NCBI GenBank assembly: GCA_030833145.1 | Contig: JAURHT010000024.1 | Span: 1-20,424, forward strand | Direction: 5' to 3' | From: Aquirufa sp. | GTDB lineage: Bacteria; Bacteroidota; Bacteroidia; Cytophagales; Spirosomataceae | Length of the DNA: 20,424 bases | In this document: positions 1,736 to 11,215 of the stretch, piece by piece | Layout of the letters: each line of letters starts with the position of its first letter | How positions within the stretch are numbered: position 1 is the stretch's first letter | The notes under the pieces: model-generated | What the model was told of the DNA's origin: nothing | Database searches by the model: none | Seen by the model: only the letters and a program-made list of their open reading frames with translations | Program-made: the position numbers and the translations under genes

Positions 1736-1818
1736 TCTATGCTTTATTCTTTGTGCTTTATGCTCTCCATATAACCTCTACTCTCTACTCTACCATCTCT
1801 ACTCTAAAATCTATTATC
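1736..1818. repeat. Degenerate heptamer tract A at the rhodanese 3' end
   Basis: The stretch divides into twelve 7-bp units, interrupted by one 6-bp unit (1771-1776). Examples are TTTATGC, TTTATTC, TCTACTC (three copies) and TATTATC. The period continues through the stop codon (1814-1816) of the minus-strand rhodanese gene. A 19-bp stretch at 1739-1757 is identical to 6241-6259 in tract C. On the coding strand the units are purine-rich. Confidence 0.7.
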
Positions 1819-2116
1819 TCAAGCTGCTCCACGCTCCTCCATTATACACCTGCGTATAACCCGCAGCTTGAAGTTGGCGGCGTGCCATGCCACTGCGACT
1901 TCCTGAGCGGCAACATGTGATGATAACCTGATCTTTCTTTAATTTGTTCAAATTTGATCCCAAAGTTTGCAAAGGTAAATTCATGGCTCCCTTGATGTGG
2001 CCGTCTTTGAATTCTGCGGGGGTACGCACGTCTACTAGGGTAGCGCCATCCGCTAAAAGTGCTTTAATGTCCACTTTTGGCCCAAAACCAAATAAATTCT
2101 TTAGTATCGTTAACAT
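1814..2116 (-). CDS. Single-domain rhodanese
   Basis: This 100-residue sulfurtransferase has the rhodanese signature VDVRTPAEFKDGHIKGA and the active loop CRSGSR with Cys69, preceded by a second cysteine (Cys68). It has no signal peptide, though the first dozen residues are hydrophobic. It likely carries sulfane sulfur to cytoplasmic acceptors. Its promoter region is shared with the divergent dsrE-like gene: a TATATTTG element (2137-2144, minus strand) matches the Bacteroidota -7 consensus exactly, and its last base lies 36.5 bp from the centre of a Crp-like palindrome at 2167-2180. The stop codon falls inside a heptamer tract. The thioredoxin pair lies downstream on the same strand. Confidence 0.92.
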   Translation of the reverse strand: MLTILKNLFGFGPKVDIKALLADGATLVDVRTPAEFKDGHIKGAMNLPLQTLGSNLNKLKKDQVIITCCRSGSRSGMARRQLQAAGYTQVYNGGAWSSLR

Positions 2117-2136: not shown

Positions 2137-2144
2137 CAAATATA
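2137..2144 (-). promoter_or_regulatory. -7 promoter element of the rhodanese gene
   Basis: Read on the minus strand this is TATATTTG, a full match to the Bacteroidota -7 consensus TAnnTTTG. It lies 20 bases upstream of the rhodanese ATG (2116). The distance from its last base to the centre of the Crp-like site at 2167-2180 is 36.5 bp, equal to the distance at the porin and tauE promoters. Confidence 0.65.
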
Positions 2145-2166
2145 GCTCACCTGATTAGGCTTGTAC

Positions 2167-2180
2167 GTGACATTTGTCTC
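2167..2180. promoter_or_regulatory. Crp-like operator 1 (rhodanese / dsrE divergent promoters)
   Basis: GTGA-CATTTG-TCTC matches the GTGA-N6-TCAC palindrome with one mismatch. On the plus side a TATCATTG element (2203-2210, 5 of 6 fixed bases of TAnnTTTG) ends 36.5 bp from the centre, and on the minus side TATATTTG (2137-2144) ends 36.5 bp away. The symmetrical fit to both divergent promoters is the main support for a site that is otherwise imperfect. Confidence 0.6.
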
Positions 2181-2196
2181 TCGGCTTTTGGAAAAA

Positions 2197-2218
2197 TTCT
2201 ACTATCATTGTAGTAGAA
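2197..2218. promoter_or_regulatory. 22-bp inverted repeat over the dsrE-like promoter
   Basis: TTCTACTA (2197-2204), a six-base spacer and TAGTAGAA (2211-2218) form a perfect 8-bp inverted repeat. It overlaps the proposed -7 element of the dsrE-like gene at 2203-2210 and the expected transcription start. It could be an operator for a second, repressing regulator, or a hairpin near the 5' end of the transcript. No candidate protein is visible. Confidence 0.45.
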
Positions 2219-2230
2219 AAAATAAAAACT

Positions 2231-2635
2231 ATGAAAAAAATCTTATTGAGTACATTGATTTTCGTCTGCGTTTCTGTTGCAGCAAATGCACAAACGCATA
2301 AAGTCGTGGTGCAGTTAAATTCGTCGGATACCTTGGTTTGGCATGGGGCTTTGAAAAATATTTCGAATCTTCAAACGGCGTTAGGGCCTACTACACAAAT
2401 CGAATTAGTAGCACATGGGGCGGGGATTAGTATTTTAGTGGATGGAAAAACCACCCAAAAGGCTAAAATTGCTGAGCTAGCTGCTTCAGGAGTTTTATTT
2501 AAAGCCTGTGAAAATACCATCCGCGAACGCAAAATCGATCGGGCTACAATTGTAACGCAGGCCGGTACAGTTCCGTCTGGTGTCGCCGAAGTGGTGTTGA
2601 AACAAGAGGCCGGTTGGGCTTATTTAAAATACTAA
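2231..2635 (+). CDS. Exported DsrE/DsrF-like sulfur-carrier protein
   Basis: The 134-residue protein begins with a Sec signal peptide (MKKILLST... with AANAQ near the cleavage site at about residue 20). The rest resembles the DsrE/DsrF/TusD/YchN fold: beta strand HKVVVQLN, a central IELVAHGAGISIL strand with the AHG motif, and Cys93 in LFKACENTIRER, the position of the conserved family cysteine. DsrE proteins carry sulfur as a cysteine persulfide. An exported one suggests handling of sulfane sulfur in the periplasm. I chose ATG 2231 over an earlier in-frame start at 2174 because the signal peptide begins there and the earlier start would precede the predicted promoter. It faces the SQR gene across a shared bidirectional terminator. 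Confidence 0.85.
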   Translation: MKKILLSTLIFVCVSVAANAQTHKVVVQLNSSDTLVWHGALKNISNLQTALGPTTQIELVAHGAGISILVDGKTTQKAKIAELAASGVLFKACENTIRERKIDRATIVTQAGTVPSGVAEVVLKQEAGWAYLKY

Positions 2636-2636
2636 C

Positions 2637-2667
2637 AAAAAGGCCGCTTAATTAAGCGGCCTTTTTT
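2637..2667. terminator. Bidirectional rho-independent terminator
   Basis: A perfect 20-bp palindrome (2642-2661, half-site GGCCGCTTAA) is bordered by five A on the left and six T on the right. It therefore works as stem plus U-tract in either direction. It separates the convergent dsrE-like gene and SQR gene. Confidence 0.93.
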
Positions 2668-2668
2668 C

Positions 2669-3859
2669 TTACATCTTTCCGGGTAGGATTTGATTCCAAT
2701 ACAAATAAGGAAGTAGGTATTTCTTCATTTGGTACATAGACCAGCGCTCCTTTGATTGATCCATTGGAAATGTTTCCATTGGGGTATTGTTGTAATCAAA
2801 TTCAGCTAACACTAATTTGTCATAACCAGTAACAATGGGGCATGAGGAGTAACCATCGTAGGAAGCGGTCATCGATTCACCTTTCATTATAGAAAGTAGG
2901 TTTTGGACTAAAATAGGTGCTTGCTTGCGAATAGCCGCTCCAGTTCTAGAGACAGGTAGTGCCGCTGCATCCCCACAAGCGAATATGTTTTTATAAGAGT
3001 TGTGTTGCAAGCTATGTTTATCTACATCAATCCAGCCTGCAGCATTCGCTAGTGAGCTTGATTTAATGAAATCGGGAGCCGATTGTGGCGGGGTTACGTG
3101 AATCATATCGTATTCAATCCAGTATTCTTGATCTTTATTGGATTCACCTATTCCCACAAATTTGGCTTTCTTGTTTGGTCCATCGATCTCGTCTAGTTTG
3201 ACGAAGAATTGCGTTTGGATTCCGTAACGAGCAATGACCTTTTTTAGCGTGTTTTCGTATTTTTCTACGCCAAAAACGCGCGTACCTCCGCTCCAAAACT
3301 CCACCTGGCTATCAATGCCGTGTTTTTTGAAATAATCGGCCGCTAAGTACATAATCTTTTGAGGAGCGCCGCCACACTTAATGGGGGTGTGTGGATTTGT
3401 GAAGATAGCTTTGCCTCCTTTGGTCTGCTGAATACACTCCCAGGTATAGGGTGCAGTCTCAAAACTGTAGTTTGAGCAAACCCCATTCTTGCCTAGATTT
3501 TCTTTTAAGCCTTTGATCTCTCCCCAATTCAATTGAATTCCTGGGGCAGTAATTAAATAGTCGTAGGCTAAATCGCTGCCATCGGCTAACGTAATTTTGT
3601 TCTCCTCTGGCTTGAAACCTGACACCATTTGTTGAATCCAAGTGGCTCCTGAAGGAATGACAGATGCTTCATCGCGCTCCGTGTCTTGAATATTGAATTC
3701 ACCACCGCCTACTAACGTCCAGGCGGGTTGGTAATAATGTTTCTTTGCTCCATCGACAATGGCAATGTCTAGGGAGGAATCTTTGCGTAATAGTTGAGCT
3801 GCGATCGAAATGCCGGCATTCCCTCCGCCTACGATTACAATGGAATGATGTGTTTTCAT
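2669..3859 (-). CDS. sqr: Sulfide:quinone oxidoreductase, type II (SQOR-like)
   Basis: The 396-residue flavoprotein oxidises sulfide to sulfane sulfur and passes electrons to quinone at the membrane surface. The FAD site is GGGNAGISIA (residues 11-20), followed by HYYQPAWTLVGGG, typical of type II SQRs including mitochondrial SQOR. Both redox cysteines of that group are present: Cys162 in IKCGGAPQKI and Cys340 in YSSCPIVTGY. The second FAD motif is IFACGDAAALP (about 292-302). The C-terminal stretch (YLLPYLYWNQ) is the expected membrane-contacting helix. There is no signal peptide, so the enzyme should face the cytoplasm, where the CstB-like dioxygenase can receive its persulfide product. It is divergent from tsdA, with Crp-like operator 2 midway. 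The proposed -7 element (TAATATTA, ending at 3885) fits only 4 of 6 bases but lies at the common spacing. Confidence 0.93.
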   Translation of the reverse strand: MKTHHSIVIVGGGNAGISIAAQLLRKDSSLDIAIVDGAKKHYYQPAWTLVGGGEFNIQDTERDEASVIPSGATWIQQMVSGFKPEENKITLADGSDLAYDYLITAPGIQLNWGEIKGLKENLGKNGVCSNYSFETAPYTWECIQQTKGGKAIFTNPHTPIKCGGAPQKIMYLAADYFKKHGIDSQVEFWSGGTRVFGVEKYENTLKKVIARYGIQTQFFVKLDEIDGPNKKAKFVGIGESNKDQEYWIEYDMIHVTPPQSAPDFIKSSSLANAAGWIDVDKHSLQHNSYKNIFACGDAAALPVSRTGAAIRKQAPILVQNLLSIMKGESMTASYDGYSSCPIVTGYDKLVLAEFDYNNTPMETFPMDQSKERWSMYQMKKYLLPYLYWNQILPGKM

Positions 3860-3914
3860 GATTAACGATTTAAAGAATATATTGTAATATTAGGGGATAT
3901 AATCAATTGATGTC

Positions 3915-3928
3915 GTGATAAAAGTCAC
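3915..3928. promoter_or_regulatory. Crp-like operator 2 (sqr / tsdA divergent promoters)
   Basis: GTGA-TAAAAG-TCAC is an exact CRP-type palindrome core, of the form GTGAT-N4-GTCAC. It lies near the middle of the 121-bp gap between the divergent sqr and tsdA genes. At 36.5 bp from its centre are TAATATTA (ending 3885, minus strand) and TAACTTGC (ending 3958, plus strand), each 4 of 6 matches to TAnnTTTG. One bound dimer could drive both genes. Confidence 0.75.
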
Positions 3929-3980
3929 TTGTACCTTTTTAATCTTCTCGTAACTTGCATTATAATTTTACGGCATAATT

Positions 3981-5003
3981 TTGAACTCATCCTTTGAACC
4001 CCGGTACCAGGTATTAACGACTTTTTTGTTTGCGTTACTTATCGTCCTTTTTGGCTATTTAGGTTTTCGAACCTTTCAAAATGTAGGAGTGGCTTCGTCC
4101 GATTCCACTTCCGTTTATGCTGCTCCTGATTCCAATTTTACGCATGTATGGACCGCGCCATCAGACTGGCGAATGATGTATTTGCAGCCAGAGGAGAAAG
4201 AATTAGTGGTGTATGGTCGGGAATTGATTGCGCATACGTCGGATTATTTAGGTCCCAAAGGTTCGGTAAAAGCCATCTCCAATGGGATGAATTGCCAGAA
4301 CTGTCACTTAAATGCAGGTACGCAGCCTTGGGGAAACAATTATTTTGCGGTTCAATCTACTTACCCTAAGTTCAGAGCTCGCTCAGGAACGAAAGAAAAT
4401 CAAATTAAGCGTGTAAATGATTGCTTCGAACGAAGCCTAAATGGGAAAGCAATGGATTCTACGAGTCGTGAAATGCGGGCAATTTTGGCCTACATTAAAT
4501 GGCTAGGTTCCGATGTAGAAAAAGGAAAGTCTCCTAAGGGTTCAGGGATATTTAAACTAAAAGGGATGAAACGGGCTTGTGATCCGATCAAAGGATCGGA
4601 GGTCTATACCATAAAATGCCAGTCATGCCATCAAGCTGATGGAGGTGGTTTACTAGCAGAAAATGGCAAGTCTTATACTTACCCACCTTTGTGGGGTGCT
4701 CATAGCTATAATAATGGCGCAGGATTATACCGTATTTCGAATTTTGCAGGCTATGTGAAATACAATATGCCCCAGGGAACTACGTATGAAAAGCCGCAAT
4801 TAACAGACGAGGAAGCGTGGGATGTGGCAGCGTACGTGAATTCGATGCCTCGTCCGGCGAAAGATTTATCGAAAGATTGGCCTAAGATTTCTAAGAAGCC
4901 ATTTGATCACCCCTTTGGACCGTATGCAGACCCTTTTTCTGAAGAGCAGCATAAGTACGGACCTTATAAGCCCATTAAGGTCTGGGCTGAAAAGCATCAA
5001 TAA
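3981..5003 (+). CDS. tsdA: Membrane-anchored TsdA-like dihaem cytochrome c (thiosulfate dehydrogenase)
   Basis: The 340-residue protein has one N-terminal membrane segment (about residues 11-28), then a periplasmic part with two haem sites, CQNCH (105-109) and CQSCH (213-217). Between them RSGTKENQIKRVNDCFERSL strongly resembles TsdA, whose haem 1 has a Cys axial ligand; Cys148 is the candidate here. GYVKYNMPQG supplies a Met (263) candidate for haem 2. TsdA interconverts thiosulfate and tetrathionate; the direction cannot be read from sequence. The start is uncertain: TTG 3981 is the first usable codon after an in-frame stop at 3963-3965, no ATG precedes the membrane helix, and it sits about 23 bases after the Crp-spaced -7 element. 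The gene is alone on its strand here. Lacking a cleavable signal, it is probably tethered beside the quinol chain. Confidence 0.85.
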   Translation: MNSSFEPRYQVLTTFLFALLIVLFGYLGFRTFQNVGVASSDSTSVYAAPDSNFTHVWTAPSDWRMMYLQPEEKELVVYGRELIAHTSDYLGPKGSVKAISNGMNCQNCHLNAGTQPWGNNYFAVQSTYPKFRARSGTKENQIKRVNDCFERSLNGKAMDSTSREMRAILAYIKWLGSDVEKGKSPKGSGIFKLKGMKRACDPIKGSEVYTIKCQSCHQADGGGLLAENGKSYTYPPLWGAHSYNNGAGLYRISNFAGYVKYNMPQGTTYEKPQLTDEEAWDVAAYVNSMPRPAKDLSKDWPKISKKPFDHPFGPYADPFSEEQHKYGPYKPIKVWAEKHQ

Positions 5004-5032
5004 AAAAAGGATGCCGAACCTAATCGACATCC
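5002..5032 (-). terminator. Terminator of the tauE-to-yeeE operon
   Basis: On the minus strand a 9-bp stem (5024-5032 with 5009-5017, one C/A mismatch, six-base loop) is followed by seven T (complement of 5002-5008). It lies 26 bases beyond the stop of the last YeeE/YedE gene. On the plus strand no T-run follows, so it would not strongly end the tsdA transcript. Confidence 0.75.
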
Positions 5033-5059
5033 CATTTACCATTCACCGTTTACCATTTT
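5032..5059. repeat. Degenerate heptamer tract B at the yeeE 3' end
   Basis: Four 7-bp units run without interruption: CCATTTA, CCATTCA, CCGTTTA and CCATTTT. The tract starts at the stop codon (5058-5060) of the minus-strand YeeE/YedE gene and reaches the terminator stem. CCATTTA and closely similar units recur in tract C. Confidence 0.65.
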
Positions 5060-5555
5060 AATGAGGAAGCTTATCTCTAAACTTTCCATATACCCAGGTA
5101 CCGGCAATCGAGCTTAAAATAACAACCGAAATAGCTAAGACTCCCGTTCCTAATTGAGCGAAAAGTGGGCCTGGGCAAGCGCCTGTTACTGCCCATCCTA
5201 ATCCAAAGATTAAGCCGCCGTAGATTTGGCCCATATTAAACTTCTTGTCCGTGAATGTGATATCTTCTCCGTGAATCGTCTTTACCTTGAACTTTTTAAT
5301 CAGGAATACGGAGATTGCGCCCACGACTACTGCAGTGCCTATGACCCCATACATATGGAAACTTTGTAGTCGGAACATTTCCTGAATGCGGAACCACGAG
5401 ATGATTTCTGCTTTCACGAATACCACACCAAACACGATTCCAACCGCTAAATATTTAAAATTATACCACCAAGGATGGCTCAAATTAGACTCGTTCAAAC
5501 ACATGGTGTCTAATGAACGTACTTCAAAATCAGTTTCTTTTTCTTGCGTATTCAT
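5058..5555 (-). CDS. YeeE/YedE half-transporter, C-terminal-half type (PmpB/DUF6691-like)
   Basis: The 165-residue membrane protein has about four hydrophobic segments. It carries FGLGWAVTGACPGPLFAQLGTG (about residues 117-138) with Cys127, the motif of the second half of YeeE/TsuA thiosulfate transporters. In full-length YeeE one chain carries both this motif and the GGCTSGH motif; here they are in separate adjacent genes, as in PmpA/PmpB pairs. The pair probably assembles to move thiosulfate or sulfane sulfur into the cytoplasm through relaying cysteines. Residues 1-28 form a polar extension with another cysteine (Cys19). It is the last gene of the operon, four bases after the upstream half-gene, and is followed by a terminator. 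Confidence 0.87.
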   Translation of the reverse strand: MNTQEKETDFEVRSLDTMCLNESNLSHPWWYNFKYLAVGIVFGVVFVKAEIISWFRIQEMFRLQSFHMYGVIGTAVVVGAISVFLIKKFKVKTIHGEDITFTDKKFNMGQIYGGLIFGLGWAVTGACPGPLFAQLGTGVLAISVVILSSIAGTWVYGKFRDKLPH

Positions 5556-5559
5556 CGGA

Positions 5560-6123
5560 TTAAAGAGCTAAAATGTAAGGAAGAATTAAATTGGCCATCA
5601 CAAATCCACCTATCATAAAGCAGATTGTAGCTACAAGAGAGGGCCATTGTAGATCGCTTAGGCCCATTATAGCGTGGCCAGAGGTGCATCCACCCGCATA
5701 GCGAGTGCCAAATCCCACGAGGAATCCTCCGCCTACCATCATAACGAACCCACGTAAAGTAAATACGTCATGAAGTTCGAATAATTGAACAGGAACCATT
5801 CCTGAAAGGTCAGTTATGCCATAACCGGCAAGTTCTTTGGCTAAATCTGGATGTATGATGATGGGAGCATCTGAGCCCAAAAAATGGGCAGCGATGAAGC
5901 CGCCGATGAAAATTCCACCGATGAAAAATAGATTCCAAGATTCTTTTTTCCAATCATATTTGAAAAAGGGAATGTCGCTCGGAATACAGGCGGCACACAT
6001 GTGACGCAGGTTGGCTGAAATGCCAAAGTGTTTGTTGCCTAACAAGAGTAGGGCTGGGACAATCAGTCCAATTAAAGCTCCGGCGACATACCAGGGCCAA
6101 GGTTGTGTAATAGTTTCCATCAT
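5560..6123 (-). CDS. YeeE/YedE half-transporter, N-terminal-half type (PmpA-like)
   Basis: The 187-residue membrane protein has about five hydrophobic segments and the family signature [16 protein letters not shown] with Cys146. A second pair, CAAC (Cys43 and Cys46 in [10 protein letters not shown]), lies in the first loop region. These cysteines correspond in type to those that pass the sulfur of thiosulfate in YeeE/TsuA. It should pair with the next gene. ATG 6123 and ATG 6120 are adjacent; either may be used. It is separated from the upstream small membrane genes by a 99-bp gap filled mainly by heptamer repeats, without a clear promoter, so read-through from the tauE promoter is likely but unproven. 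Confidence 0.88.
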
Positions 6124-6155
6124 TTATTTGGTATTTAATTGTTTTAATCTGTATT

Positions 6156-6260
6156 CAGTGGGAAGTGGACAGTCGGCAGTCCGGAGGGAATTAGTCGGGA
6201 GGGAAAATTCATCATTCACCATTTACGACTTACCATCTTTATGCTTTATTCTTTGTGCTC
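6156..6260. repeat. Degenerate heptamer tract C (15 units) entering a gene
   Basis: Fifteen consecutive 7-bp units can be read without a phase break, among them CAGTCGG, CAGTCCG, CCATTTA, TATGCTT and TATTCTT. The composition shifts from GC-rich units to T/C-rich units but the period holds. The tract runs across the stop codon (6223-6225) and encodes about the last 12 residues of the minus-strand small membrane protein. Bases 6241-6259 are identical to 1739-1757 in tract A. Confidence 0.75.
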
Positions 6261-6450
6261 TAAACCCACTAATCGTTCCCAACACAAAATACCCCAAAAC
6301 AGCAAAATATACAATGCTATTCAGGGGTTTACTCGTAATGGGACACGTGCCACTGGCACACCCTATATCTCTCCAATAGAAATATCCGGCTATTCCGCCG
6401 AATATTCCTCCTAGGATTTGCCAGAATCTATTTTGAATGAATTTCTTCAT
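6223..6450 (-). CDS. Small membrane protein with GCxSGTCPIT motif (DUF6132-like)
   Basis: The 75-residue protein has two predicted membrane segments (about residues 10-26 and 43-61). Between them is [15 protein letters not shown], a two-cysteine motif I associate with DUF6132-type proteins of Bacteroidota; the exact family is from memory. The function is unknown. The paired cysteines and the position between a rhodanese and YeeE/YedE genes suggest a role with sulfane sulfur at the membrane. I chose ATG 6450, overlapping the upstream gene by 23 bases; a longer frame to 6525 would lie inside that gene. The last dozen residues ([13 protein letters not shown] region) are encoded by heptamer tract C, so the C-terminus may be a recent repeat-derived extension. 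Confidence 0.78.
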
Positions 6451-6670
6451 ATTCCACTTCTTCGGGTTTAGTATAGTTGTTGCGAGGTGCTGGGATACCG
6501 CAGCCTTGGGATCCGCAGCCAGCATTTAGAAAGGCCATTCCAACCAGAACGGCTCCCATCATTCCGATTAAAATATCGGACGCACGGAAGGCCTCTACAA
6601 GCGCATATCCACCTACTAGTAGGCGGATAATGCGCATGAAACCCCAATTTTGTGTTAGGTTAGCTAGCAT
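6428..6670 (-). CDS. Small membrane protein, YgaP/DUF2892-like
   Basis: The 80-residue protein opens with QNWGFMRIIRLLVGGYAL, resembling the start of the YgaP membrane domain (DUF2892), has two hydrophobic segments, then NAGCGSQGCGIP with two cysteines, and an acidic tail. In YgaP a rhodanese and this type of membrane domain are fused; here the rhodanese is the adjacent upstream gene, one base away. That points to a membrane-tethered sulfur-transfer complex. It overlaps the next small membrane gene by 23 bases. The family call is moderate because the protein is short and the cysteine motif is not the usual DUF2892 ending. Confidence 0.78.
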   Translation of the reverse strand: MLANLTQNWGFMRIIRLLVGGYALVEAFRASDILIGMMGAVLVGMAFLNAGCGSQGCGIPAPRNNYTKPEEVEYEEIHSK

Positions 6671-6671
6671 A

Positions 6672-6944
6672 TTAGTTTTGGTACATCAACATATCGTGTA
6701 AACCTCCACCATTATATACCTCTGCTAATCCTGCTTGCTTTAAAAGCATTTGAGCCATACCTGAACGATTGCCGCTTCTGCAATAAACCACGATGGGTCC
6801 AGACATAGCCTTAAATTCGTCTAAGCGCAATGGAATGATTCCTAAAGGAATATTAATGGCACCATCGAATTGTCCACCAGCAAATTCTCCTGTTTCTCTT
6901 ACATCAACGACCGTTGTCGCTGGATTAGCTAATAATTCTTCCAT
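6672..6944 (-). CDS. Single-domain rhodanese, YgaP-rhodanese-like
   Basis: This is a 90-residue rhodanese with VDVRETGEFAGGQFDGA and active loop CRSGNRSG, giving one catalytic cysteine. I chose ATG 6944, two bases after the stop of the persulfide dioxygenase gene. A TTG at 6968 is in frame and would add eight residues by overlapping that gene; it cannot be excluded, since rhodaneses often have a few residues before the position where this start falls. The following gene is a DUF2892-like membrane protein, so the two together resemble a split YgaP. It probably passes sulfane sulfur between the dioxygenase, the transporter and cellular acceptors. Confidence 0.9.
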   Translation of the reverse strand: MEELLANPATTVVDVRETGEFAGGQFDGAINIPLGIIPLRLDEFKAMSGPIVVYCRSGNRSGMAQMLLKQAGLAEVYNGGGLHDMLMYQN

Positions 6945-6946
6945 GA

Positions 6947-8365
6947 TTACAATAGGGTTGATGGACAAACATATTCTGTTAATTGGAATTTCTCCGATTC
7001 TTTAATGGCTTTGAATCCACCTTTTACATCGATTAAGTTATCGAATCCGCGGGCTCTTAATGTTGAATTAAAGATCATAGAGCGGTATCCACTCGCACAA
7101 TGTACGAAGTAGGTTTTGTCTTTGTTGATTTTTAACATACTGTCATTAATAAAGTCCAAAGGCGCATTTTCCACATCAATCACGTGCTCTGAAAGGTATT
7201 CGCTGTTCTTGCGAACGTCTAGAATTTCGCCTTCACCAGCATGGACACGCTTCAATAATTCAGTTGCGTCAATCGATTCAATTCGATCGATTTCCATGCC
7301 TGATGCTTTCCAAGAGGCGAATCCCCCTTTCAAATATCCAATGGTGAAATCATAACCAACGCGTGCAAGACGTGTGATTACTTCTTCTTCACGGCCCTCA
7401 TCCGTCACTAACAAGATTTCTTGTTTGATGTCTGGAATCATCGCACCTACCCACGGAGCAAATGATCCGTCGATACCGATGTTAATTGAATTAGGTACAA
7501 ATCCAGCTGCAAAAGTCTGTGGATCACGCGTATCTAGGATGAGTGCACTGGTTTCATTTGCTGCCGCTTCAAATCCTTCTGGACTTAAAGCATGTTGGCC
7601 ACGCTCTAATACTTTATCAATAGAATCATATCCTTGGATATTCATCAAAACGTTCAAAGGGAAATAAGCGGGAGGAGCAACTAATCCTGTTAAAACTTCT
7701 TTTTTGAATTCCTCTTTCGTTAAAGCAGGGTTCAAAGCATAGTTTACTTTCTTTTGGTTGCCTAAGGTATCAGTTGTTTCCTTGCTCATGTTTTTTCCAC
7801 AGGCAGAACCAGCTCCGTGTGCAGGATAAACGATGATATCGTCCGCTAATGGCATGATTTTGTTGCGAAGGGAATCATATAGATGTCCTGCTAAAATGTC
7901 TTGTGTTAGATCGGCGATTACTTTTTGTGCCAAATCAGGACGTCCCACATCCCCTATAAATAGCGTATCACCTGAAAATAAGCTTGTTTCTTTTCCATTT
8001 TCGTCGATTAAAAGGAAGCAAGTGGATTCCATCGTATGACCCGGGGTGTGGATCACGCGGATGGTTACATTGCCTAATTTGAATTCTTGGCCATCTGTCG
8101 CTGAAATGCAATCAAAAGCACAAGCGGCATTTGGGCCGTAAACGATGGGTGCACCTGTTTTGGCAGACAAATCAATATGGCCAGAAACGAAGTCCGCGTG
8201 GAAGTGTGTTTCGAAAACATACTTTATTTTAGCGCCATTACGTTCCGCTTTCTCGATATACGGCTGCACCTCGCGAAGTGGATCAATGATCGCAGCTTCG
8301 CCATTGCTTTCGATGTAATAGGCACCTTGTGCTAAACATCCCGTGTAAATTTGTTCTACTTTCAT
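6947..8365 (-). CDS. CstB-like persulfide dioxygenase with two rhodanese domains
   Basis: The 472-residue cytoplasmic enzyme has a metallo-beta-lactamase domain (about 1-240), a degenerate rhodanese (about 255-360) and an active rhodanese (about 362-465). The dioxygenase metal motif is THFHADFVSGH (His54, His56, Asp58), with HTPGH (His110) and SGDTLF (Asp133). In ETHE1-type enzymes two His and one Asp bind iron. The middle rhodanese has VTDEGREEE where a catalytic loop should be, so it lacks the cysteine. The last has HCASGYRS with Cys423, and there is a C-terminal CPSTLL. This order matches CstB of Staphylococcus aureus, which converts persulfides to sulfite and thiosulfate. It follows tauE by 18 bases, fitting sulfite production coupled to export. 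SQR probably feeds it. Confidence 0.92.
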   Translation of the reverse strand: MKVEQIYTGCLAQGAYYIESNGEAAIIDPLREVQPYIEKAERNGAKIKYVFETHFHADFVSGHIDLSAKTGAPIVYGPNAACAFDCISATDGQEFKLGNVTIRVIHTPGHTMESTCFLLIDENGKETSLFSGDTLFIGDVGRPDLAQKVIADLTQDILAGHLYDSLRNKIMPLADDIIVYPAHGAGSACGKNMSKETTDTLGNQKKVNYALNPALTKEEFKKEVLTGLVAPPAYFPLNVLMNIQGYDSIDKVLERGQHALSPEGFEAAANETSALILDTRDPQTFAAGFVPNSINIGIDGSFAPWVGAMIPDIKQEILLVTDEGREEEVITRLARVGYDFTIGYLKGGFASWKASGMEIDRIESIDATELLKRVHAGEGEILDVRKNSEYLSEHVIDVENAPLDFINDSMLKINKDKTYFVHCASGYRSMIFNSTLRARGFDNLIDVKGGFKAIKESEKFQLTEYVCPSTLL

Positions 8366-8383
8366 ACTATTTTTCTGTTAAGA

Positions 8384-9205
8384 TTATTTTAGAGGGAAGG
8401 CTAATTGTTGGATTAGAATGTACATTCCCATCACTAATACGAACCAGCCAAAACCTACTTTTAGTTTGTTTCCGTCTACTTTTTTACTCAAAATATCGCC
8501 GAAGAAAATCCCGACAATGGCTAAACCTGTCACGGTTAATAATAAGTTCCAATCAATGACCGTGTGGCCAAGATCACCCGTAAATCCAATTAAAGACTTA
8601 GCGGCAATGATCAATAGGGAAGTCCCTACCGCCTGTTTCATAGATAATTTGGAGAGCATCACCAAAGCCGGAATAATTAAAAAACCGCCTCCAGCACCCA
8701 CTAGGCCAGTTAAAGTGCCTACGATAGCTCCCTCTAACAAGATCATGGGGTAATTGAATACTTGAACTTCTTCTACGTAAGTGCCTAATTTTTCTTTTTC
8801 ACATTGCTCACATTTGCCTCTAATCATCGATATCGAAGCGGCAACCATCAAGATCGCGAACAGAACCATCATCAAGATGGATTTAGTGACGATGAAATCC
8901 CCTATGCTAAAAACTTCAGACGGGATTAATGGAACAATGAATTTGCGAGTCGCATAAACGGCAGCAATCGACGGTATGCCGAAAATGATAGCCGTTTTTA
9001 CATTAATCAAACCTTGTCTGTATTTGGGAATAGCGCCTACTAAGGAACTCGCACCTACGACGAATAGCGAATAGGCAGTGGCTAGAATAGGATTCACCCC
9101 GAAAAGATAAACCAGAACCGGTACTGTTAAAATGGATCCGCCACCCCCGATAAGTCCTAACGAGACTCCGATTAACAAGGATGCGAAATAACCAATAATT
9201 TCCAT
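8384..9205 (-). CDS. tauE: TauE/SafE family sulfite/sulfonate exporter
   Basis: The 273-residue membrane protein has roughly eight hydrophobic segments and the two inverted-repeat signatures of the family, GLIGGGGSILTVPVLVYLFG (residues 17-36) and GLVGAGGGFLIIPALVML. Members export sulfite, sulfoacetate or related anions; here the adjacent persulfide dioxygenase suggests sulfite. A loop contains KCEQCEKEK with Cys132 and Cys135, unusual in a carrier and possibly redox or metal responsive. I chose ATG 9205; a longer frame reaching 9274 would start inside the Crp-like operator. It is the first gene of a seven-gene minus-strand operon, with a GAAATTTG -7 element (ending at 9231) and operator 3 upstream. 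Confidence 0.92.
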   Translation of the reverse strand: MEIIGYFASLLIGVSLGLIGGGGSILTVPVLVYLFGVNPILATAYSLFVVGASSLVGAIPKYRQGLINVKTAIIFGIPSIAAVYATRKFIVPLIPSEVFSIGDFIVTKSILMMVLFAILMVAASISMIRGKCEQCEKEKLGTYVEEVQVFNYPMILLEGAIVGTLTGLVGAGGGFLIIPALVMLSKLSMKQAVGTSLLIIAAKSLIGFTGDLGHTVIDWNLLLTVTGLAIVGIFFGDILSKKVDGNKLKVGFGWFVLVMGMYILIQQLAFPLK

Positions 9206-9230
9206 GTTGTGTTTTTTGTTATTGTTGATA

Positions 9231-9238
9231 CAAATTTC
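9231..9238 (-). promoter_or_regulatory. -7 promoter element of the tauE operon
   Basis: On the minus strand this reads GAAATTTG, matching 5 of the 6 fixed bases of TAnnTTTG. Its last base is 36.5 bp from the centre of Crp-like operator 3 and 26 bases upstream of the tauE ATG. A transcription start near 9225-9228 puts the operator at about -40 to -42, the usual place for a class II Crp activator. Confidence 0.6.
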
Positions 9239-9260
9239 AACCTTTTGCCAGACCTTATTC

Positions 9261-9274
9261 GTGATTTTTATCAC
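9261..9274. promoter_or_regulatory. Crp-like operator 3 (tauE operon)
   Basis: GTGAT-TTTT-ATCAC is a perfect CRP-type palindrome. It lies in the gap between the stop of the porin gene (9288) and the tauE start (9205). The flanks (TTC on the left, AAG on the right) resemble those of operator 4. It lies at activating distance from the -7 element of tauE. Confidence 0.85.
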
Positions 9275-9287
9275 AAGGTCCGAAAAT

Positions 9288-10547
9288 TTATAAGCGATAA
9301 TTTACGACGAAATTCCAGGAGTTCATATTCACTTTATTTTGGATATACTTAGAGTTCTCCATCATGTCCCCTTGATTCGTTTTGTTGGCTAGCAGAAATT
9401 GAAAATCAAGTCCTTTGGCAATTTTAGAGGCATCGATCAGGATTTCCAAATTCATTTGCGTGTAAGAGGGCATCCCGTATTTATTCAGACTAAAATTAGT
9501 TACCGATGGTAGTTCAAAATAGCCTACACTAGGATTGATTTTGATTTTCCATTTGGGAATTACATAACTAAATTTAGCCACATAGGCCTTCACATCGCCT
9601 AATCCCTCGTTTCTTTCTCTGGGCATAAACGTATAGAATGGATCTTTTCCCCATTCGCGTGGCATAAGATACCTACCCTCTGCGCTAATATTCGTGAAGT
9701 TTAAACTACCATTCCATCGCTTGTATTCTAGCCCAGTTTTTAAACTGATGACAGAAGCATGGGTATTTTTTTCTGTATACTGGTTATCACTGAGGGAGTG
9801 TTGCTTAATGAATTGTATTCCGCTTACCCATTTTCCACCTTGTATGAGTTTTGTGAATTCTGTCGAAATTAAGGCTGTTTGCAGAATATTTTCGACGAAA
9901 AGGTCATGGAATTTAAAGCTTATCCCTTTCCATTTCTGGTCCATTCCTGCCATCAATATCCCCGCACTCGTTAAATGGCCGGCATAGGTTGATTTTTTGC
10001 CATCAATGGAAACACCCACGGGAAAATAGCCAATGGACTCTGCTACAGGTGACCAGCCCATGGTTCCTCTAGGAGCCATTTCATATAAGTAGCCTAGACT
10101 AAGATGGCCCAATTCTGCATACATTCCTCCCTCAGCGCTTGGCCTCATTCGGCCATCCTGTGGATTAATAAAGGGGGTATTTAGCACTTGACGTCCTAGT
10201 TTGACTTTCATTTTCTTGTTTTGGTAAGTCAAAGATGCTTTTTCAATCCGTGTTAAAAAATCCAAATTAGTGGTATTAGCTTGATCGAATAAACCGATTT
10301 CATAGCGACTTGAAGAAAGGTTAGAAGAATTTAGAAAGGAGGTGCTTAGAGATCCCGAAAGATCTACTTTAAAGTGCTTGCCTACGTTTTTTGTGTAACC
10401 CAATTCAACTCCTAACGCATTAGCCCCATAATCAGGCAATACTTTTTCGTTATCCGTTTCTAAGTGAAAGTAGCGGAATTGGGCGTAAAAGGGCTTTTGA
10501 GCGAGTAGTGGAATGCTAAGCAAAAAGGTAAAAAGGAATTTCATCAT
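9288..10547 (-). CDS. Outer-membrane porin, OprD-like beta barrel
   Basis: The 419-residue protein starts with a signal peptide (MMKFLFTFLLSIPLLAQ) and consists of alternating amphipathic strands. The segment KLGRQVLNTPFINPQDGRM is typical of OprD-family porins, and the chain ends in a strand with FVVNYRL. It should form a channel for small anions or organic compounds in the outer membrane. Its place between crp and the tauE operon, and its own Crp-like operator, suggest passage of a sulfur substrate or product such as thiosulfate; no sequence feature proves this. ATG 10547 and ATG 10544 are adjacent. The predicted -7 element (GAATTTTG, ending at 10552) lies so close to the start that the mRNA would have almost no leader. 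It may also be reached from the crp transcript. Confidence 0.82.
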   Translation of the reverse strand: MMKFLFTFLLSIPLLAQKPFYAQFRYFHLETDNEKVLPDYGANALGVELGYTKNVGKHFKVDLSGSLSTSFLNSSNLSSSRYEIGLFDQANTTNLDFLTRIEKASLTYQNKKMKVKLGRQVLNTPFINPQDGRMRPSAEGGMYAELGHLSLGYLYEMAPRGTMGWSPVAESIGYFPVGVSIDGKKSTYAGHLTSAGILMAGMDQKWKGISFKFHDLFVENILQTALISTEFTKLIQGGKWVSGIQFIKQHSLSDNQYTEKNTHASVISLKTGLEYKRWNGSLNFTNISAEGRYLMPREWGKDPFYTFMPRERNEGLGDVKAYVAKFSYVIPKWKIKINPSVGYFELPSVTNFSLNKYGMPSYTQMNLEILIDASKIAKGLDFQFLLANKTNQGDMMENSKYIQNKVNMNSWNFVVNYRL

Positions 10548-10551
10548 AGGA

Positions 10552-10559
10552 CAAAATTC
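10552..10559 (-). promoter_or_regulatory. -7 promoter element of the porin gene
   Basis: On the minus strand this reads GAATTTTG, matching 5 of 6 fixed bases of TAnnTTTG. It ends 36.5 bp from the centre of Crp-like operator 4, exactly as at tauE. Its last base is only five positions upstream of the ATG at 10547, implying a leaderless or nearly leaderless transcript. Confidence 0.55.
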
Positions 10560-10581
10560 CCTTATTTAGTTAAGCTTTTTC

Positions 10582-10595
10582 GTGATGAAAATCAC
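10582..10595. promoter_or_regulatory. Crp-like operator 4 (porin promoter, overlaps crp stop)
   Basis: GTGAT-GAAA-ATCAC is a perfect CRP-type palindrome. The stop codon of the crp gene (10592-10594) is part of its right arm. It lies 36.5 bp (centre) from the -7 element of the porin gene, as at operator 3. Confidence 0.85.
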
Positions 10596-11215
10596 AGACT
10601 CCGTAAATCGATGATTTCGATTTGGTTCTTATTGATTTTGATGAATCCTTTCTCAGCTAACTTCTTCATTAAGCGTGATATGACTTCTCTGGAAGAATTC
10701 AATTCTTGCGCGATGTCTGTGAAGGATGCTTTCAAAATATTCGTTTTCAAGCTCTTTTGGTGCTGTTTTAAGTACCAAAGTAAACGTTCGTCCAGATTTC
10801 TAAACGCAATTTGATCTAAGGTGTCCAGTAATTCTTCGAAACGAGAACGGTAGGTCTCTAGCACAAATTGGTACCAAGATTTATATTTAGCGCCCCATTC
10901 GTCCATTAATTCGGCCGGGATGGCGATGACTTCGGTGTCTACGAGGGCTTTGGCCATAATCTGAGACGATAATTGTCTCGCAGCGCAAGTCATCGAAATG
11001 GCACAAGCTTCGCCAGGATGCAGATTGTACATAAATACCTCGTTGCCCTCTTCGTCTTCGCGGAATACTTTGATAATTCCTTTCGTTACCAAGACAGCTG
11101 ATCGAATGGATTGCCCTGTTTTCATCAAATAGTCGTCCGTTTTGAATTTTCGAACTACGCCTACTTGTTGAATTTTTTTGCTTAATTCAGGCTCAAACTG
11201 ATTGAATAATTCCAT
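10592..11215 (-). CDS. Crp/Fnr family transcriptional regulator
   Basis: The 207-residue regulator has an N-terminal cNMP-type effector domain (about 20-110), a dimerisation helix (about 112-140) and a C-terminal winged helix-turn-helix (about 150-200). The recognition helix reads SSREVISRLMKKL. R-E-x-x-x-R is the arrangement that reads GTGA in E. coli CRP, and the Ser before the last Arg is as in FNR. This agrees with the GTGAT palindromes found beside the sulfur genes. The effector domain has only two cysteines, Cys71 and Cys77 in EACAISMTCAAR, and no N-terminal cluster motif, so it is not an Fe-S FNR. A thiol or persulfide sensor is possible but unproven. Its ATG is one base after the stop of the Gfo/Idh gene, so it is cotranscribed with it. 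Confidence 0.93.
   Translation of the reverse strand: MELFNQFEPELSKKIQQVGVVRKFKTDDYLMKTGQSIRSAVLVTKGIIKVFREDEEGNEVFMYNLHPGEACAISMTCAARQLSSQIMAKALVDTEVIAIPAELMDEWGAKYKSWYQFVLETYRSRFEELLDTLDQIAFRNLDERLLWYLKQHQKSLKTNILKASFTDIAQELNSSREVISRLMKKLAEKGFIKINKNQIEIIDLRSL

Follow-up and report, generated by a model that had tools for sequence, protein, structure and literature searches.

We analyzed a stretch of 20,424 nt from Aquirufa sp. (Bacteroidota; assembly GCA_030833145.1, contig JAURHT010000024.1, positions 1 to 20,424), called the window in what follows, in which a cluster of sulfur genes adjoins the gene of a Crp/Fnr-family regulator, the linked Crp (Table 1). The window Crp is 97% identical to the Crp of A. 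antheringensis, so the window is Aquirufa-like; the genome-scale tests given below were run on genomes of relatives and not on the window's own genome. Four copies of the palindrome GTGA-N6-TCAC, three exact and one with a mismatch, are best read as putative operators of the Crp encoded at 10592-11215. Taken together, the sequence comparisons make it very probable that this linked Crp is a class II activator of a sulfur regulon extending through the phylum Bacteroidota and that it acts through operators with fixed spacing to the promoter.

Table 1. Putative operators, predicted promoter boxes and genes of the sulfur cluster in the window
Feature	Positions	Strand	Remarks
Putative operator GTGACATTTGTCTC, one mismatch	2167..2180		rhodanese side: distal half GAGA, proximal half TCAC intact
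Putative operator GTGATAAAAGTCAC, common to divergent sqr and tsdA	3915..3928		exact palindrome
Putative operator GTGATTTTTATCAC, upstream of tauE	9261..9274		exact palindrome
Putative operator GTGATGAAAATCAC, upstream of porin	10582..10595		exact palindrome
Predicted -7 box of rhodanese TATATTTG	2137..2144	-	36.5 bp from center; 6/6 consensus bases
-7-like box toward dsrE TATCATTG	2203..2210	+	5/6; clade-specific, weak
Predicted -7 box of sqr TAATATTA	3885..3892	-	4/6
Predicted -7 box of tsdA TAACTTGC	3951..3958	+	4/6
Predicted -7 box of tauE GAAATTTG	9231..9238	-	5/6
Predicted -7 box of porin GAATTTTG	10552..10559	-	5/6
crp, Crp/Fnr-family regulator, 207 aa, C71 and C77, helix SSREVISR	10592..11215	-	Pfam cNMP_binding and HTH_Crp_2
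Porin-like outer membrane protein, 419 aa	9288..10547	-	no Pfam match; label taken from the original prediction
tauE, sulfite exporter TauE/SafE family	8384..9205	-	Pfam PF01925, 1.2e-41
pdo, persulfide-dioxygenase-like, metallo-beta-lactamase and two rhodanese domains	6947..8365	-	Pfam; NCBIfam matches below curated cut-offs
Rhodanese, single domain	6672..6968	-	Pfam PF00581, 6.7e-13
YeeE/YedE-like sulfur transport protein	5560..6123	-	Pfam Sulf_transp PF04143, 1.2e-17
YeeE/YedE-like sulfur transport protein	5058..5555	-	Pfam Sulf_transp PF04143, 8.7e-10
tsdA-like cytochrome c	3981..5003	+	Pfam SoxA-TsdA_cyt-c and Cytochrom_C
sqr, sulfide:quinone reductase-like	2669..3859	-	NCBIfam type III SQR selenoprotein-subtype model, 1.8e-69, below its cut-off; Pyr_redox_2
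dsrE-like protein	2231..2635	+	Pfam DsrE, 6.5e-7
Rhodanese, single domain	1814..2116	-	Pfam PF00581, 7.3e-18

Operators and -7 boxes in the window

The original prediction, made from the letters of the window, had placed the three exact palindromes and the one-mismatch copy in promoter gaps of the sulfur genes. All four positions were reproduced; the exact palindrome occurs nowhere else in the window, and its three copies compare with a mean of 0.24 in shuffled sequence, none of 100 shuffles having three or more. The placement in promoter gaps holds in general, except that the site upstream of porin overlaps the end of crp by 4 bp, its TCAC (10592-10595) holding the minus-strand stop codon TGA. 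Three loci of relatives (L110, L113 and L159) show a similar overlap between a palindrome and the end of the crp match. Palindromes with one mismatch are common in the window (7 found against 5.26 expected, with 25 of 100 shuffles reaching as many); significance of the 2167 site by window statistics alone was thus ruled out, and this site rests on its conservation.

Class II activators of the Crp type bind at sites centered near -41.5. For Flavobacterium johnsoniae, excerpts of PMC6847099 give the -7 consensus as TAHHTTTG and place its G at -5. Octamers resembling this element lie 36.5 bp from the palindrome centers at all six promoters named in the original prediction, with numbers of matching bases that agree with those given there (Table 1); TAnnTTTG is matched in full by the rhodanese promoter only. 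If the G of each box is set at -5, the distance of 36.5 bp puts the operator center at -41.5 from the predicted start, which agrees with the class II position proposed originally. This center, together with imperfect -7 boxes at several promoters, makes up the layout of a class II activator. The transcription start predicted for porin falls at 10547, the A of its ATG, which suggests a leaderless transcript in this clade. The 35 bp between site and porin in the window recur in L003; most loci (13 of 16) have the start of the porin match 154-217 bp away from the site.

Conservation of the sites and of their spacing

Thirty-six loci of close relatives were fetched by Crp and mapped with 17 window proteins, and their promoters were read; a locus was counted only if it included the start of the gene and no less than 150 bp before it, and the window was added to the counts. 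The exact palindrome precedes tauE, porin and sqr in every locus counted (31, 16 and 15 loci) and tsdA in 16 of 24. When up to one mismatch was allowed in the site, TTTG followed it at exactly 26 nt (a gap of 26 nt equals 36.5 bp from the center) at tauE in all 31 loci, at porin in 9 of 16, at tsdA in 9 of 24 and at sqr in 2 of 15; the sqr boxes at fixed spacing match at least four of six consensus bases in 14 of 15 loci. The rhodanese promoter has a site with at most two mismatches and a fully matching (6/6) TAnnTTTG at fixed spacing in 15 of 15 loci, the proximal TCAC being intact in all of them. No site with at most one mismatch was found before the control genes, though some of the control stretches are coding, the gene lying closely behind another: yeeE1 (0/26), yeeE2 (0/26), trx (0/13), rhodanese-thioredoxin (0/7), msrB (0/7), crp (0/36) and gfo (0/34). 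As for pdo, which sits downstream of tauE in close relatives, its upstream stretches have the palindrome exactly in 1 of 30 cases and with one mismatch in 15 of 30, never at the fixed spacing.

The original prediction had the linked Crp activating all six promoters. Conservation of the sites is consistent with such a role, still a predicted one, at tauE, rhodanese, sqr, porin and tsdA; dsrE was rejected as a general target, a fixed-spacing match being present only in the window, L004, L006 and L033 (4 of 20 loci). The stretches fetched for loci L023-L025 lack sqr, pdo and tauE as well as any exact site. One of these loci is from genome G015, where tauE and pdo lie on another contig (L098), with palindrome and TTTG at gap 26 before tauE.

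The distance of 36.5 bp was first picked by eye; hence, we compared it with other distances. In six related genomes, where gaps of 11-41 nt were scanned, gap 26 takes 23 of the 101 TTTG matches; the other 30 gaps have 2.6 on average, and the next most frequent, gap 24, has 8. The palindrome occurs 38 times in the A. antheringensis genome and the reversed pattern 15 times; six of the palindromes lie within 12.4 kb round the sulfur cluster (nominal Poisson probability 5e-8, for a stretch picked afterwards). When palindrome and TTTG at gap 26 were sought together in 17 of the genomes behind the 36 loci (close kin, with matches that are not independent), we found 51 matches against 2 for the reversed pattern. 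Forty-six of them precede likely targets, 37 in the cluster and 9 at rhodanese-OsmC, HMA or peroxiredoxin genes: tauE 17, tsdA 7, porin 7, rhodanese-OsmC 4, 87-aa HMA 4, DUF2202 3, sqr 2, cluster rhodanese 1 and 1-Cys peroxiredoxin 1.

Some of these targets deserve a comment. The rhodanese-OsmC operon that bears the operator is remote from the cluster (L090, L091, L093, L096); each of the four genomes also has a second TTTG on the other strand, at gap 13, which is perhaps part of a divergent promoter. The 87-aa HMA-domain gene, again with its operator in four genomes (L085, L094, L095, L100), is divergent to a flavin reductase gene. The DUF2202 gene adjoins tsdA (L087:9007-9663, between sqr and tsdA; L089:1807-2499) and has an operator of its own in some Aquirufa.

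Beyond close kin, we considered 15 distant Cytophagales genomes, with Crp proteins 41-54% identical. The pattern GTGAY-N4-RTCAC with TTTG at gap 26 has 29 matches in 13 of these genomes, against 2 for the reversed pattern, and 22 of the 29 precede targets (some of the downstream-gene labels were assigned by sequence): tauE 6, persulfide dioxygenase types 6, rhodanese 3, YgaP-like membrane protein 3, and peroxiredoxin, SulP, thioredoxin-like protein and crp 1 each. In 40 distant loci (753 kb) the wider pattern GTRAY-N4-RTYAC is followed by TTTG at gap 26 in 46 cases, while other gaps have a mean of 1.33 and a maximum of 6 (gap 27); 38 of the 46 precede one of the 17 query genes, in loci that were fetched for crp or pdo and are therefore biased in target content, though not in spacing. 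The concentration of the fixed-spacing palindrome on sulfur genes, which the original prediction had expected of related genomes, was thus borne out in close and in distant relatives.

For the phylum as a whole, we took the regions upstream of 60 pdo genes in 49 genomes, the strongest matches among 247 genomes belonging to the same phylum as A. antheringensis. The exact GTGA-N6-TCAC alone misses most of these promoters: Flavobacterium-like loci (the label is a guess) are without it and have GTGATAAATGTTAC or GTAACATTAGTCAC at gap 26, a GTAA variant. The operator wording GTRAY-N4-RTYAC was derived from reading 8 of the 60 regions, which are therefore not independent. With at most one mismatch, this operator was found with TTTG at gap 26 in 33 of the 60 regions; the corresponding number for the 40 regions not read beforehand is 18. 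The operator occurs 34 times at this gap, compared with a mean of 0.35 at any other gap and of 0.09 when the regions were shuffled by mononucleotide 200 times. Though only TTTG was required, 33 of the 34 boxes start with TA and none has G at position 3 or 4, which fits TAHHTTTG. The original prediction had thus understated the scope of the arrangement, which reaches distant Bacteroidota as well as targets outside the cluster.

The regulator tends to accompany the gene. Of the 247 genomes, 58 have a close pdo (E-value 1e-140, a threshold set in this analysis), and 50 of these have a Crp match (E-value 1e-25), as against 36 of the 189 without such a pdo (Fisher 1e-20, a statistic that ignores kinship). 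Crp and pdo are no more than 10 kb apart in 29 or more of the 50 genomes that have both.

The linked Crp and its recognition helix

The window Crp matches PF00027 (6.8e-10) and PF13545 (1.6e-10), both above cut-off, and so belongs to the Crp/Fnr superfamily. Its residues R176, E177 and R181 align to R180, E181 and R185 of E. coli CRP. At the positions of the cyclic AMP (cAMP) contacts R82, S83, T127 and S128 it has L82, S83, L129 and L130, one of four being kept, and it scores 37.3 bits against the NCBIfam CRP equivalog with a cut-off of 266. We rejected cAMP as a ligand, as the contacts of R82, T127 and S128 are not kept, and an FNR-type 4Fe-4S cluster, which needs four cysteines where there are two. 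These two, C71 and C77, lie in CAISMTC. When the window Crp was aligned with those of 30 pdo-operator genomes, C71 was kept in all 31 rows and C77 in 29. Thiol persulfide sensors have two reactive cysteines, between which di- to tetrasulfide links form. No Pfam match of the window Crp points to a CsoR, ArsR or AAA+ fold, that is, to the CstR, SqrR/BigR and FisR families.

Of the 31 genomes with a pdo operator, all but one encode a homologue of the linked Crp (E-value 1e-15), 26 of them a single homologue and 4 two or three. In the paralogues from G001, G002, G003 and G006 the helix reads ATESVIR, ATETVIR or RVETVIR and does not have the RExxxR pattern. A second cNMP-binding protein of A. antheringensis, with no Pfam HTH_Crp_2 match, adjoins msrB near the cluster (L087:2491-3072).

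In E. coli, E181 of CRP reads the third base pair of the half-site. We took one operator per genome (that of pdo, in the copy nearest crp if there were two; that of tauE for the window) and found G missing at the third base of both half-sites in 1 of 19 rows with E177 and in 8 of 12 with V177 (Fisher 5e-4). In 11 of 31 rows the third-base G is present in the promoter-proximal half only, and in 3 in the distal half only. The correlation between E177V and operator supports a match of Crp and operator, but is not decisive.

Proposed mechanism, alternatives and significance

In the mechanism that we propose, a Crp dimer centered at -41.5 would cover about -48 to -35, where a -33 element would lie; it would replace the -33 contact and, by class II activation, bring the housekeeping RNA polymerase of Bacteroidota to -7 boxes of the form TAnnTTTG. 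Its most likely targets in the window would be rhodanese, sqr, tsdA, porin, and tauE with the downstream pdo-rhodanese-YeeE genes; dsrE would be activated only weakly. In many Bacteroidota the operator GTRAY-N4-RTYAC, 26 nt before TTTG, would control persulfide dioxygenase, TauE, rhodanese and related thiol genes. Less certainly, the signal would be sulfide-derived persulfide or polysulfide, acting via the conserved Cys71, often with Cys77, and not cAMP; persulfide is the most likely signal because of the targets and the conserved cysteine. We see an even chance that a CAxS-x2-C motif stands in place of cyclic-nucleotide sensing, so that Crp would be a phylum-wide Bacteroidota sensor of sulfane sulfur and an activator of persulfide dioxygenase, SQR, TauE, rhodanese and thiol-repair genes, with its helix co-evolved with the operator (E177 with GTGA, V177 with GTAA).

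A number of observations speak against this interpretation or narrow it. Of the window's own promoters, dsrE has its site in the closest clade only, the -7 boxes of sqr and of many tsdA promoters are degenerate, with TTTG at gap 26 in no more than the 2 of 15 and 9 of 24 loci counted above, and 7 of 16 porin promoters have a -7 box that is degenerate or about one base nearer. Five of the 51 matches in close kin are not before sulfur or thiol genes: three are inside open reading frames (ORFs), one points into an ORF, touching only its end (L089, 3654-3697), and one lies between genes, before a methyltransferase gene (L099); the 87-aa HMA gene is no obvious sulfur gene either. Among the distant Cytophagales, 7 of 29 matches are elsewhere (an MFS transporter, a DinB-type gene divergent to rhodanese, one palindrome below tauE read twice, and three inside ORFs), and 2 of the 15 genomes have no match genome-wide. 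There is no site at gap 26 in 27 of the 60 pdo upstream regions, some of which may be inside an operon, and 8 of 58 pdo-bearing genomes have no Crp match at the E-value used. Cys77 is missing in G180 and G267, both with an operator, and in L076, so a two-cysteine mechanism is not universal. A structure model, not used to place C71 or C77, is mediocre (pLDDT 74.4; Foldseek TM-scores of about 0.3-0.4). Finally, the helix correlation weakens to Fisher 0.002 with the other pdo copy of G277; most V177 rows are of one clade (G157 and G180 are outside it), G204 and G263 are contrary, and the Fisher statistic ignores kinship.

The main rival concerns the signal. It is possible, if somewhat doubtful, that the operators regulate the sulfur genes while Crp reads something else (redox or disulfide stress, oxygen, nitric oxide, haem or another ligand), in which case the regulon would be redox or respiratory in nature and include sulfur genes; among such signals, stress on thiols or on redox balance is the strongest competitor. 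The OsmC, 1-Cys peroxiredoxin and thioredoxin-like targets and the HMA gene flanked by flavin reductase would fit thiol stress too, Cys77 is not universal, and sensors of other ligands (NtcA, HcpR, FNR) are in the Foldseek list. On the other hand, the commonest targets are tauE, persulfide dioxygenase and rhodanese; two cysteines per window monomer do not make the four-cysteine cluster of FNR, and the loss of R82, T127 and S128 tells against a cAMP reader.

It is improbable that another Crp/Fnr paralogue binds GTGA-N6-TCAC, with the linked Crp playing a minor part or none. Relatives do encode more than one protein of the Crp/Fnr type, and GTGA half-sites are of the general Crp type; still, the paralogues described above are without the RExxxR helix, and 26 of the 31 pdo-operator genomes have a single homologue of the linked Crp, which often adjoins the sites. 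Synteny, co-occurrence and the recognition helix thus support the linked Crp as the predicted binder.

We regard as unlikely, to a similar degree, that Crp is a repressor blocking the sulfur promoters until sulfide comes. Excerpts of PMC9774590 describe several persulfide regulators that repress (CstR, SqrR, BigR), and the operator does cover the -33 region. A repressor, nevertheless, needs no exact spacing, while a rigid -41.5 with imperfect -7 boxes at several promoters is what a class II activator has. That the palindromes arose by chance, or are shared by ancestry without function, is hardly credible: one-mismatch sites are indeed at chance frequency in the window and close relatives are not mutually independent, but exact sites, spacing and targets all greatly exceed what is obtained from shuffles, from reversed patterns or at other spacings, distant genomes included.

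The regulon with the linked Crp as its predicted activator may be compared with known systems. One of them is E. coli CRP at class II promoters: a cNMP-binding and helix-turn-helix fold, the kept R180/E181/R185, GTGA half-sites and a center at -41.5 (a predicted position in the window) are common to both, whereas the window Crp is without R82, T127 and S128, its promoters have TAnnTTTG, its targets are sulfur genes, and a GTAA half-site variant occurs in other Bacteroidota. The best solved relative by sequence and fold is PDB 3dv8, a Crp/Fnr protein of Eubacterium rectale (of a phylum other than Bacteroidota) that has the C-x5-C pair and the REV helix, although it is only 22% identical to the window Crp; a cysteine-bearing Crp subfamily may thus reach beyond Bacteroidota. 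HcpR of Porphyromonas gingivalis (9day), which has a role in nitrosative stress, is also a Bacteroidota regulator of Crp/Fnr type and is in the Foldseek list, but it is absent from the sequence matches of the window Crp.

By its targets the regulon resembles that of FisR (Acinetobacter, Cupriavidus), described in excerpts of PMC7315123 as a sulfide-responsive activator of SQR, PDO and TauE genes; FisR, however, is a sigma54-dependent AAA+ activator, and here a Crp/Fnr protein would act at promoters of the Bacteroidota primary-sigma type. BigR/SqrR (ArsR family) and CstR (CsoR family) likewise control genes of persulfide and sulfide detoxification and sense persulfide by paired cysteines, as far as excerpts of PMC9774590 and PMC7315123 tell; they are repressors of other folds, and the window Crp is a putative sensor. 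The nearest precedent found is a Crp listed among the persulfidated proteins of Acinetobacter baumannii in the abstract of PMC7315123.

Among the papers listed from mainly open-access literature, no title or abstract opening names a Crp/Fnr regulator of Bacteroidota sulfide oxidation. Regulators of sulfane sulfur named in excerpts of open-access papers are CstR, SqrR/BigR, MarR types, FisR, OxyR, PerR, AdpA and others, none of them for sulfide oxidation in Bacteroidota. Class II activation by Crp/Fnr proteins is already known; no description was found, in the open-access papers searched, of a sulfur regulon that spans Bacteroidota and joins a rigid operator to a cysteine-bearing, likely non-nucleotide sensor. 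If the interpretation is true, one class II geometry does in Bacteroidota what FisR, CstR and SqrR do elsewhere, and a single fixed distance links operator, -7 box and regulator at promoters that differ from the E. coli type. The predicted regulator, operator and spacing rule could then serve in annotation of sulfide-response genes across the phylum, and missing members can be found by the same rule: rhodanese-OsmC, YgaP-like and peroxiredoxin genes have already come out.

Apart from the operators, the window has a degenerate 19-bp tandem repeat, GCGATTTAGTCATCGACTGC, in 3.5 copies at 1594-1661, between the thioredoxin and rhodanese genes.

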